From: Gemmatimonadota bacterium
GTDB lineage: Bacteria > Gemmatimonadota > Gemmatimonadetes > Longimicrobiales > Gaopeijiaceae
Length of the DNA stretch: 64,000 nt
Assembly: GCA_022826565.1 (NCBI GenBank)
Contig: JAJDUP010000006.1
Coordinates: 124,001 to 188,000, forward strand
Direction of reading: 5' to 3'
Of this stretch, positions 8,561 through 55,727 are shown piece after piece. The translations under genes were made by a program, and so were the position numbers. How positions within the stretch are numbered: the stretch's first letter is position 1; every line of letters starts with the position of its first letter. A model generated the notes under the pieces. The model did not search any database, had not been told where the DNA came from, and saw nothing but the letters and a program-made list of their open reading frames with translations.

Positions 8561-10425
8561 CCGGCAAGGCGTGGCACGAAACCCTGCTGGATTCGGCCGG
8601 TGCCGCCTCCGCCCTGGCAGCGGCGCTCGTGCAACGTAAGAATGTCAAGCAAACACTACAATATGTCGTGTTAGGTTTACATGTTGTGCTCATGGCAGCA
8701 GCCGCGCCGCCCCTCTCCGCCCTCCAGGCCCGCCCCGACGCACGCATTGAGAACCGCATGCTCAGGCAGGCGTCCTCGCAAGAAGCGCGCGGGGAGCTGG
8801 ATGGGGCCGAAGCCACGCTGTTTGAACTGCTTGCCCTTCAGCCCGGCTCCTCGGCGGCGGTCTTCGCACTCGAACGCGTGTATCGCAGGGGTGACCGGCT
8901 GGGCGACCTGCTGCCGGTCCTCGACGAGTTCCTCGAGCGGGATGCGTCGATGGGGCGTGTGTGGGGGCTGAAGGTGGGCGTGCTGGTCGAACTGGACTCG
9001 CTCGCGGCGCTCGAGGGCGTGGTGCGGGACTGGATCGAGGCCGAGCCGGGATCGCCCGACCCGTACCTGACGGGCGCCGAGGCCTTCCTCGGCGCCTTCG
9101 GGGCCGTGAGGGCCACCGGGTTGCTCGAAGAGGGCACCGCCGCCCTGGGGGAGTCCCCTCAACTGCTCGTCGAGCTGGGGGACATGTACGTCGCCGCCGG
9201 GCGCCTGGACGACGCGGCCGAGTCGTGGGCGCGGGCGCTGGGGCGCGACCGGGCGCGGAGCGGCGCGGTGTTCCGCCGCGTCGAGGATCTCGGCGACGAG
9301 CGAGGGGCGGCGGCCACCCGGATCGTAGGCGCACTGGGGCGTGAGCCGACTAACGTGACGCGCCTCGAGGCCGGGGCCGAGCTGGCGCTGCGGGAAGACC
9401 TCGAGGACGACGCGATGACGCTCGCCGCCGACGCCCTCACCCGGCTCGAAGACCGGGAGGCGCGCGGCTTTCTCAACGGGTTCGCGCGCAAGGCGGAGGA
9501 CAACGGGCGCGACCGGAGCGCGCTCTGGGCCTATGCCCGCCTCAGGGAGATGACCGAGGATCCCGCCGAGGCGCGATCGACGGACGAGCGCCTGGCCGAT
9601 GCCGCGCTGGTGGCCGGTGACACCGCGGTCGCGCTCGCGGCCCTGCGCAGGATCACCGAGTCGCACCGGGTGGGCTCCGAGGCTCGCCGCGCGGCCTGGA
9701 CCGCGGAACTGCGCATCCAGGTGGGTTCGCCGGAGGTGGAGGGCGCTGCCGAGGCCCTCGCCGCCTTCCGCGAGGAGTTTCCGGAGTCGCCCGACCTCGA
9801 CGCCCTCTCCGCCACGCTCGCTTCCCGCCTGCTCGGCCGCGGTATGCGCGAAGAGGCGATGGCGGTGCTGAGCGGGATCGAGGGGCCGGGAGCGGCGCTG
9901 GAGCGGGCCTTCCTGCTTCTCGAAGGCGGCGCATTCCCCGAAGGGATTGCCGCGCTGCAGGCATCGCTGCCCGAGCTGGAGCCGTCCGACGCGACCGAGA
10001 TCCTCGAGCTCACCCTCGCGCTGAGCGAGCTGACGCCCCCGGGGGGGATGCTCGCGGCCGAGGTGGCGATCGCGCGGCACCGCGGCCACGCGGAGGACGG
10101 GGTGTTTGCGGTGCAGGAGCGCATCGATGCCGTACCTGCCCAGGACAGGCCAGCCATTCTGGCGCAAGGCGCACGCGCGGCCGATCAGGCCGGGCTGGCG
10201 GGCGCGGCGGTGCAGTTCAGGCGGCGCATCGTCGCCGAGTATCCCGAGGCGCGCGAGTTCGCCGAAGCCGCGCTGAGGCTCGCCCGGGCGGTGGCCGCCG
10301 AGCCGGGCGGGCGCAACGAGGCGGTGCGCATTCTCGAGGCGCTGATCGTCAGCCGCCCGGACAGCCCCGTCGTGCCGGGCGCGCGCCGGGAATTGAGAAG
10401 AATCCAGGAGGGAGGTTCCCGATGA
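8557..10425 (+). CDS. exported TPR-repeat protein
   Basis: About 600 residues of helix-turn-helix tetratricopeptide-like repeats (for example ARGELDGAEATLFELLALQPGS and YVAAGRLDDAAESWARALGRD), with no catalytic motif. It is probably a periplasmic protein-protein scaffold serving the DUF4159/DUF4175 system it is co-transcribed with. Start choice is uncertain. The GTG at 8557 overlaps the previous stop. A GTG at 8629 would give a textbook signal peptide (basic MQRKNVKQ, then a hydrophobic core ending LSALQA). An ATG at 8692 is also in frame. The DNA between 8638 and 8690 is far more AT-rich than the rest and contains a copy of the 41-bp paired element, so this stretch may be regulatory as well as coding. 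Confidence 0.8.
   Translation: MTGKAWHETLLDSAGAASALAAALVQRKNVKQTLQYVVLGLHVVLMAAAAPPLSALQARPDARIENRMLRQASSQEARGELDGAEATLFELLALQPGSSAAVFALERVYRRGDRLGDLLPVLDEFLERDASMGRVWGLKVGVLVELDSLAALEGVVRDWIEAEPGSPDPYLTGAEAFLGAFGAVRATGLLEEGTAALGESPQLLVELGDMYVAAGRLDDAAESWARALGRDRARSGAVFRRVEDLGDERGAAATRIVGALGREPTNVTRLEAGAELALREDLEDDAMTLAADALTRLEDREARGFLNGFARKAEDNGRDRSALWAYARLREMTEDPAEARSTDERLADAALVAGDTAVALAALRRITESHRVGSEARRAAWTAELRIQVGSPEVEGAAEALAAFREEFPESPDLDALSATLASRLLGRGMREEAMAVLSGIEGPGAALERAFLLLEGGAFPEGIAALQASLPELEPSDATEILELTLALSELTPPGGMLAAEVAIARHRGHAEDGVFAVQERIDAVPAQDRPAILAQGARAADQAGLAGAAVQFRRRIVAEYPEAREFAEAALRLARAVAAEPGGRNEAVRILEALIVSRPDSPVVPGARRELRRIQEGGSR
8642..8682 (+). repeat. paired 20-bp element, copy 1
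   Basis: Two 20-bp units, ATGTCAAGCAAACACTACAA (8642-8661) and ATGTCGTGTTAGGTTTACAT (8663-8682), are spaced by one base (21-bp pitch). This is the arrangement of four other loci in the window. The second unit ends 9 bases before an in-frame ATG (8692) of the TPR gene. The stretch is strikingly AT-rich against its surroundings. Palindromic symmetry here is weak (ATGT...ACAT ends only). Confidence 0.5.
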
Positions 10426-11690
10426 TTCGCCGGGCCGGAGTCGTGGTGGCGGCAACAGTGATTGCAACCGCCGCGTTTGATGCGGAGAACGCTGCCGCGC
10501 AGCTCCTTCTCGTCCCCATGGACCGCAGCCAGTCGAACCACCTCAAGGCCTACGGGCTCACCTACAGCGTTCTTGAGCAGGACGGACGGGCGGAGTGGCT
10601 CCTCAACTTCCAGGGCGGGTCGTTTCTGCTGCCGGACACCGAGGGCACGCGCAGGGCGGCGGCGCTGATGGGCGTGACCGTCCAGCCGGTCGGCGCGGCC
10701 GACGAGGCGCGCATCCGGGGCATCGTCGCAACATCGAACATGGAGTCGGTGGTGCTGGAGAAGGCGACGAACATCGCGATCTACACGCCGCCCAACAGCG
10801 CGCCGTGGGACGACGCGGTGACGATGGCGCTCGACTACGCCGAGATCCCCTACGAGAAGATCTGGGACGACCAGGTGATCGAGGGCGGGTTGGAGGATTT
10901 CGAATGGCTCCACCTCCACCACGAGGACTTCACGGGGCAGTATTCGAAGTTCTACATCACGTATGCGGGTGCGCCCTGGCTCGAGGAGGAGGTGGCGCGC
11001 AACGAGGAGGCGGCACAGGCACTGGGATTCGCGAACGTGCCCGCGCTCAAGAAGGCGGTGAGCTACAGGATCCGCGAGTACGTCGAGGGCGGCGGCTTCC
11101 TCTTCGCCATGTGCTCGGCGCCCGAGACGCTGGAGCTCGCGTTGGCGGCCGCGTCCGTGGACATTGCGGCGGCGTATTCGGACGGCACCCCGCCCGATCC
11201 CGACGCCGGCTCCAAGGTGGACTGGGGGCTCGCCATGGCCTTCCAGGACGCGGAGATCCAGGTGGCGCCGTCGGTGAATGCGTTTTCGGACATCGACGGG
11301 CACCAGGTCAACACGCCGTGGAAGAAGGAGCTGGGCGCGTTCACACTCTTTGATTTCTCCGCCAAGTTCGATCCGGTTCCCGCGATGCTTACGCAAAGCC
11401 ACGAATCAGTGCTCTCCGACTTCTACGGGCTGACGACATCATTCGCGGTCGACCGGCTGAAGCCGGGGGTCGTGAAGCTCGGCGTCGAGGGGACGTGGGC
11501 CAAGTACATCCACGGCAACCTCGGCCAGGGCACCTGGACCTATTACGGCGGGCACGATCCGGAGGATCCCGAGCACCAGATCGGCGATCCCCCGACGGAT
11601 CTGGAACTGCACCCGAATTCTCCGGGCTACCGGCTCATTCTCAACAACGTCCTGTTCCCCGCAGCGAAGAAGAAGAAGCTGAAGACGTGA
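10422..11690 (+). CDS. conserved exported protein (family often labelled asparagine synthetase B)
   Basis: A 422-residue protein with a signal peptide (residues 1-27, ending ENAAAQ). Family landmarks are LLLVPMDRSQSNHLKAYGL, EWLLNFQGGSF, PWDDAVTMALDYAEIPY, FEWLHLHHEDFTGQY, GGGFLFAMCSAPETLELALA and the closing TWTYYGGHDPEDP. Homologues in Bacteroidota carry the name asparagine synthetase B. However, there is no N-terminal Cys glutaminase domain and no ATP-pyrophosphatase SGGLDS loop, so that name is very likely wrong. The GGGF...MCSA loop and His-rich segment suggest a DUF4159-like amidotransferase fold, consistent with the DUF4159 gene in the same operon. It overlaps its neighbours by 4 bases on both sides. 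Function unknown, probably periplasmic. Confidence 0.75.
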   Translation: MIRRAGVVVAATVIATAAFDAENAAAQLLLVPMDRSQSNHLKAYGLTYSVLEQDGRAEWLLNFQGGSFLLPDTEGTRRAAALMGVTVQPVGAADEARIRGIVATSNMESVVLEKATNIAIYTPPNSAPWDDAVTMALDYAEIPYEKIWDDQVIEGGLEDFEWLHLHHEDFTGQYSKFYITYAGAPWLEEEVARNEEAAQALGFANVPALKKAVSYRIREYVEGGGFLFAMCSAPETLELALAAASVDIAAAYSDGTPPDPDAGSKVDWGLAMAFQDAEIQVAPSVNAFSDIDGHQVNTPWKKELGAFTLFDFSAKFDPVPAMLTQSHESVLSDFYGLTTSFAVDRLKPGVVKLGVEGTWAKYIHGNLGQGTWTYYGGHDPEDPEHQIGDPPTDLELHPNSPGYRLILNNVLFPAAKKKKLKT

Positions 11691-55479: not shown

Positions 55480-55727
55480 GTGTCCCGTCCCGGAAGTTCG
55501 CGTGCTAACGAGAGTGCCGAGGCGCCGGGCTGGCGAGGCGCTCTGAGAGGCGAATAGCACCGCTATTCGTCCGAAGAGCAACGCAGAGCGGAGCCCCGAA
55601 GATGAGAATGTAAAGAAAACATGACATATTATCATGTAAGCATTACAGTGTGGCTCGGCGAGCGTAGCGGTCCAGCGTGGATGCATCGGTGCTCGAATAG
55701 CCGAGAGATTTCCGGGACAGGACACTA
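55477..55727. mobile_element. MITE-like element B (about 250 bp)
   Basis: The terminal inverted repeats are AGTGTCCCGTCCCGGAAGT (left, from 55479) and AGTGTCCTGTCCCGGAAAT (right, read in reverse complement), each next to TA. No transposase. Inside are an 8-bp stem CGAATAGC/GCTATTCG (55551-55569) and a copy of the 41-bp paired element. TA flanks and short terminal repeats suggest mobilisation by an IS630/mariner-type transposase, which is inference. Confidence 0.75.
55608..55648 (+). repeat. paired 20-bp element, copy 5 (inside element B)
   Basis: ATGTAAAGAAAACATGACAT (55608-55627) is followed one base later by TTATCATGTAAGCATTACAG (55629-55648). The first unit matches copy 4 unit 1 at 15 of 20 positions. 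The second unit keeps only the right half (GCATTACA, as in copy 3 unit 2). It shows the element can travel on a MITE. Confidence 0.5.

Follow-up and report, generated by a model that had tools for sequence, protein, structure and literature searches.

Which regulator recognizes the five paired palindromic elements in a 64,000-nucleotide stretch of Gemmatimonadota DNA (contig JAJDUP010000006.1, positions 124,001 to 188,000; this whole stretch is called the window below), and what would its binding do there? Each element, here called a doublet, consists of two 20-bp units separated by a 1-bp linker. This arrangement was described in an original prediction made from the letters of the window and was recovered at all five loci (Table 1), as was the perfect palindrome at 34192-34211. 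We propose, with a probability of roughly 0.62, that the doublet is the double operator of a regulator in which an XRE-type helix-turn-helix (HTH) is fused to a periplasmic-binding-protein-like (PBP) domain, and that this operator was multiplied in one genus. The element is real, strong and genus-limited, and the candidate binder is well supported.

Occurrence of the doublet

The exact unit ATGTAA-N8-TTACAT was found 32 times in the 4.39-Mb genome that contains the window (G000) and never in the reversed control, and the complete doublet, with at most 3 mismatches, 95 times versus 0. The prediction of tens of matches keeping the linker was borne out, since 31 of the 32 exact units, located without any constraint on the linker, have a partner at a pitch of 21 bp; the lone unit lies at C8:165421. 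With a 41-position matrix, 65 sites above 25 bits (the highest at 69) were detected in 628 kb of the 4.39 Mb, namely the window and 55 stretches picked around pattern matches; density and linker of these sites are not independent evidence, and the linker test free of that bias is the 31 of 32. In three Markov-1 controls of the 628 kb, no scanned position exceeded 12 bits. The consensus is ATGTAATGTnnACATTACAT-W-ATGTAATGTnnACATTACAT, its strongest positions being four half-sites TGTMA/TKACA, and one flanking T stands on either side. All five doublets of the window score 44-64 bits, and degenerate units occur among them (for example 18918-18937, 34171-34190 and 8642-8661).

Among the 23 genomes of the genus, 22 hold 29-265 doublets and one (G009) holds none. 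The 98 other genomes of the family have 0-5, and 24 genomes from other families of the order 0-2; over the 121 genomes of the family, the reversed control gave a single match, in one genome (G111). The highest count, 265 in 2.8 Mb, was that of G010, where two doublets stand 55 bp apart at one place. A tandem array of three identical doublets at 249-bp intervals was seen in G021 (C1:207279, 207528 and 207777).

Table 1. Doublets of the window and the miniature inverted-repeat transposable element (MITE) that carries one of them; ORF, open reading frame as called; G006, a close relative.
Feature	Coordinates	Strand	Context	Matrix score	Remarks
Doublet 1	8642..8682	.	directly before called start, ORF 8686-10425	53.9	kept in G006, 4 changes
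Doublet 2	18897..18937	.	within 3' end, ORF 16198-18960	44.2	G006 copy identical
Doublet 3	26133..26173	.	23 bp past stop of ORF 24502-26109; tRNA gene (26298-26381) follows	64.0	
Doublet 4	34171..34211	.	18 bp before ORF 34230-35060 (CN_hydrolase); overlaps end of called ORF 33660-34181	59.4	G006 copy identical
Doublet 5	55608..55648	.	mid-MITE	56.5	
MITE	55479..55726	.	carries doublet 5		248 bp; 17-bp inverted ends; arms 94% complementary

The candidate binding protein

Of five single doublets read in other families, two (in G035 and G049) lie upstream of an operon with an XRE protein of 72-74 residues. A search of the genus with one of these small proteins recovered an XRE HTH in 22 of 23 genomes, a result with which a profile search agreed; the exception, G009, is the sole genome of the genus without the regulator and also the sole one without doublets. 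At all 22 loci a palindromic doublet, one each, precedes the regulator gene by 37 to about 110 bp (matrix scores 37-64). In the genome of the window, the regulator (C39:279045-280151, 369 residues) combines a Cro/C1-type HTH (HTH_3, PF01381, E 1.2e-13, residues 10-64) with a sensor domain (PBP_like, PF12727, E 2.1e-43, locus L146). It is followed by a modA gene (TIGR01256, E 7.9e-35, same locus), and by eye a modA-like gene follows in most other loci of the genus as well. The operator of the regulator's own gene in G000 contains a sigma-70-like promoter (TTGTCA-16-TATAAT, 11 of 12 matches, shuffles 0.0), and bound protein would therefore shut this promoter.

The best of the AlphaFold models reached a mean pLDDT (predicted local distance difference test) of 82 and the other four 40-52; fold matches in the PDB were general periplasmic-binding and LysR-effector folds and not decisive, and sequence matches were 9k3w (PbsX-type), CylR2 and the 434 repressor. 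No result implicates the LexA-like gene of the window (54772-55479), at which no further test was aimed. PadR, MecI/BlaI, Zur and NrdR were considered as well and were dropped once the XRE operator had been found.

Homologous genes outside the genus were compared at 22 distinct loci. Upstream doublets of at least 25 bits were present at 13 of these, and 3 score 15-24, including one from Myxococcota and one titled Proteobacteria; another 3 have a 2-bp linker, and the remaining 3 are partial matches for which no HTH was found to anchor on. In another Gemmatimonadota genus (g12), eight genomes have the operator at the regulator, four with pitch 21 and four with pitch 22, and 0-5 other matches per genome. 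Few-copy autoregulation thus looks ancestral, and the multiplication is specific to the genus of the window; homologous genes elsewhere often have the operator, with at most five matches per genome.

Some further observations concern these relatives. The 2-bp linker of the own-gene operator was seen in the g12 genomes G033, G059, G060 and G067, the others having 1 bp, and contamination or transfer may account for the extra matches in G062, G066 and G067. Public records of metagenome-assembled genomes (MAGs) titled Gammaproteobacteria (L224, L228, L237) hold a regulator resembling that of g12; their titles are perhaps wrong. The regulator scan brought up relatives in the form of MAGs with Gemmatimonadetes or Longimicrobiales in their titles, for example JAJDTB010000015.1, OX639991.1 and OX638356.1. 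Judging from MAG names, the group presumably lives in sponges.

Conservation and half-site preference

The close relative G006 differs from G000 by about 7-8% in the flanks of the doublets. Of the 65 sites of G000, 40 could not be placed by both flanks on the G006 DNA that was fetched, and 23 of the 25 mapped sites were retained. The two dropped before counting are 55608, where the MITE is absent, and L054, which is gapped and for which no doublet was found in G006. Over the 23 pairs, changes affected 10 of 460 half-site positions, 61 of 368 spacer positions and 170 of 2111 positions of the intergenic flanks (184 of 2561 with the flank window of the synteny-pair analysis). The 8 pairs obtained by synteny alone gave 4/160 for half-sites, 19/128 for spacers and 51/609 for flanks (core versus flank, p 0.009). 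In the reverse direction, 26 sites of G006 were mapped and two were flagged: c32:178253, where either a deletion in G000 has truncated the site or G006 carries an insertion, and a MITE-to-MITE match.

The 8-bp spacers changed about twice as fast as the intergenic flanks between these two genomes. Such a pattern would fit a higher mutation rate of bound DNA or changing selection on the spacers.

Half-sites also differed with the protein. TG at half-site positions 6-7 was observed in 297 of 652 halves from genomes with the helix SRQAIHAIE versus 64 of 348 from those with SRQAILA(I/V)EAG, whereas AC at the same positions was observed in 80 of 652 versus 138 of 348. Accordingly, TGTMATG was dominant in three genomes with the first helix, and TGTMAAC was much commoner in three with the second. 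The samples behind these figures were 28 of 29 sites of G001 (one of two identical copies omitted), 33 of 34 of G017, 32 of 118 of G002, 26 of 143 of G021 (three tandem copies skipped), 63 of 116 of G000 and 68 of 134 of G006. Such a shift is what a changing recognition helix, together with its targets, would give.

Within the unit, no covariation was detected between paired positions (nine position pairs in 130 units, none at p <0.05). The two half-sites of a unit vary independently, as would be the case with protein contacts but not with an RNA hairpin, and a hairpin element was rejected. Together with the XRE candidate and its own doublet at 22 of 22 loci, this supports one part of the prediction, a single repressor binding as two adjacent dimers; the other part, operators upstream of genes as a general rule, fared differently.

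Placement of the dispersed copies

In the genome of the window, 60 sites could be classed by gap: 37 are tandem, 12 convergent and 11 divergent, against about 33, 10 and 18 if sites simply followed the length of intergenic DNA. Another 3 sites fall within genes, and 2 are at the edges of stretches. Of the 58 sites centred in intergenic DNA, 50% have a stop codon no more than 60 bp away, versus 19% of random intergenic points, and 0 of 1000 resamples reached the observed value. The enrichment predicted within 60 bp upstream of starts did not appear (29% of the 58 versus 24% of random points), with the reservation that gene calls came from a home-made caller and distances to starts are rough. 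When points of the same gap were used and sites with shared flanks were left aside, the values were 56% versus 46% for stops (p 0.018) and 33% versus 37% for starts. In the single-contig genome G021, a stop was at most 60 bp away for 13 of 21 sites and a start for 6 of 21, figures without a control. At several loci the stop codon is provided by the element itself. Gap classes, stop enrichment and the lack of start enrichment all speak against the idea that the copies are, as a general rule, operators upstream of genes.

An ordinary large regulon, in which many genes would be repressed by the protein at operators in their promoters and the copies past stop codons would serve the next gene or unannotated RNAs, is an unlikely explanation for the same reasons. 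Three copies of the window, numbers 1, 2 and 4, do end 3-19 bp before a start (9, 19 and 18 bases in the original prediction), with the correction that the copy at 18897 also lies inside the last codons of the called ORF. The promoter within the own-gene operator and the 29% of sites close to a start would fit a regulon as well. However, this proximity to starts is not above random in either comparison, and 12 of the 60 sites stand in convergent gaps. The 130 flanks of 60 bp contained no shared motif or hidden promoter beyond the one flanking T, and no common pathway was seen among 126 neighbour genes, a survey in which proteins above 700 residues were shortened to 600.

Association with a MITE

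The original prediction placed one copy on a MITE, which is correct for 55608. The corresponding position of G006 lacks the element, and this copy is the one for which such an insertion difference was demonstrated. Alignment of 11 related copies revealed two terminus types, with the doublet in the middle. The MITE is one vehicle of spread, and the dominant one in the sample from G010, where 15 of 265 sites were tested; 9 of these matched the MITE profile and 12 shared their flanks with another site.

One may then ask whether the doublet is MITE cargo altogether, the solitary copies being old MITEs with decayed flanks and the places past stop codons those where insertion does least harm. The insertion polymorphism at 55608, the mid-element position of the doublet and the numbers from G010 agree with this. 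Elsewhere, however, the MITE profile matched only 13 of 134 sites of G000 and G006 (6 of 202 control pieces), flanks were shared by 6 of 65 sites in G000 and 3 of 21 in G021, and half-sites are conserved in copies outside MITEs. A MITE-like copy at about position 2865 of L050 has no scoring doublet, and therefore the doublet is not needed for spread. We thus give hitch-hiking little credit as the full account.

A related structure was noticed at 28392-29225 of the window (834 bp), both ends of which match the ends of the MITE at 55479-55726. Between these ends there appears to be part of a coding sequence that has no Pfam match, like a MITE that captured DNA.

Comparison of orthologous gaps showed the position of doublet 3 to be occupied in G000, G006, G007, G012 and G021, and no doublet was found in the remaining orthologous gaps examined. 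The tRNA that follows is the one found by an Rfam scan of the window. Behind this gene (window 26298-26510), partial copies of the tRNA 3' end were seen at the orthologous loci of several species, in a pattern resembling the leftovers of repeated integrations or duplications.

Proposed mechanism

According to the double-operator reading, two dimers of one XRE-type protein would sit side by side on the 41-bp doublet, two helical turns apart, the binder most likely being the XRE and PBP_like regulator that adjoins the modA-like gene. In the ancestral state the operator would lie upstream of the regulator's own gene, where the bound pair would block the promoter; this autorepression would presumably be set by molybdate or tungstate, a ligand guessed from PF12727 and the modA neighbour. 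In one Gemmatimonadota genus the site would then have been multiplied to 29-265 copies, partly riding the MITE family, and the copies would have been kept in intergenic DNA, often just past stop codons. The protein very probably occupies these dispersed sites, and the conservation of half-sites suggests that occupancy probably matters at many of them.

What occupancy does there is the weakest step. The bound pair may most often stop or insulate transcription at gene ends rather than repress promoters. We take such a roadblock or insulator to be the single likeliest function, though we would sooner bet against it than for it, as it competes with a nucleoid-type role, the regulation of a subset of genes and tolerated cargo. 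A wider account, for which the odds are somewhat below even, would be that a local metal-uptake autorepressor became, within one genus, a genome-wide DNA-binding protein acting mainly off promoters at gene ends, as roadblock, insulator or nucleoid-type protein. Its sites would have been multiplied partly by a captured MITE and kept by selection, and protein and half-sites would change together. In G010, a smaller genome, the sensor domain is largely gone while the number of sites peaks.

A chromosome-organizing site of nucleoid or segregation type, bound by the same protein and acting through many dispersed contacts rather than on single genes, would suit the intergenic, promoter-independent position of the sites. 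It would also suit the lack of an obvious cluster in two single-contig genomes (all 29 listed sites of G001 and part of the 143 of G021). However, species differ ninefold in copy number and G009 lacks the sites altogether, which makes such a role improbable.

Several points weigh against the double-operator reading. That the XRE-PBP protein binds the doublet is a prediction from sequence. The joint absence of protein and doublets concerns one genome; no XRE gene lies close to three of the five single doublets of other families, and the small XRE proteins of G035 and G049 lack the PBP fusion, though G035 has a fusion protein elsewhere. The genome with most doublets, G010, has a regulator of 261 residues without most of the PBP domain. 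The half-site shift between the two species groups may come partly from shared ancestry, and 15 of the 23 pairs with G006 were taken around G006 matches, which favours conserved half-sites. The stop bias within the same gap is modest (56% versus 46%), and molybdenum families are missing from the 25 commonest of the 155 families of the 126 neighbour genes. Finally, 14 of the 23 genomes of the genus have further, weaker XRE matches. The dispersed sites might thus belong to a different DNA-binding protein of the genus, with the XRE-PBP gene as just one target. This is nevertheless quite improbable, since these weaker matches are missing from some genomes with doublets, and in genera where further copies are few or absent the doublet still precedes a gene of this regulator family, a pattern of autoregulation.

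Relation to known systems

If the double-operator reading is true, the doublet would record a route from a one-operon repressor to a chromosome-wide binding protein, by way of an ancestral operator that a MITE helped to spread and that was later conserved and re-tuned with its protein. The relatives with few copies and the 22 species of differing copy number make this transition testable. They would be natural material for the open question, as raised in PMC10294691 and PMC6397444, of whether non-promoter sites of bacterial regulators act.

Searches of the open-access PubMed Central literature listed no paper on this doublet. The HTH_3 domain, the dimer-type palindrome and the site upstream of the own gene are shared with XRE-family (Cro/C1 HTH) autoregulators; most XRE regulators autoregulate, with 12-14 bp between contacts, according to the main text of PMC12565409. 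The paired operator, its fixed 21-bp pitch and 29-265 copies mostly off promoters set the doublet apart from these autoregulators, and none of four half-site strings sought occurs in that main text.

The PBP_like domain and the modA neighbour recall molybdate-linked proteins of the PF12727 or COG1910 type (ModE; tungstate regulators cited in PMC10102598). The XRE-PBP regulator, too, presumably senses a metal oxyanion. ModE and the tungstate-regulator family of Rajeev et al. 2019, however, are said to use other DNA-binding domains, unlike the XRE part of our candidate. A further difference is that no enrichment of metal genes was seen beside the dispersed copies (126 neighbours).

Closer in geometry are the two-dimer operators of small XRE proteins, such as restriction-modification controller proteins, CylR2 and the 434 repressor, in which XRE dimers occupy neighbouring palindromes. 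These operators number one or few per genome, whereas our candidate has an extra PBP domain and many sites. With MITEs and repeats of the repetitive extragenic palindrome and bacterial interspersed mosaic element (REP/BIME) type, the doublet shares an intergenic position, often near gene ends, and the residence of some copies in an element with inverted ends; unlike in those repeats, most copies in G000 have only the half-sites in common, not flanks or spacers. All in all, the operator is of a familiar kind, and what is unusual is its putative genomic role.

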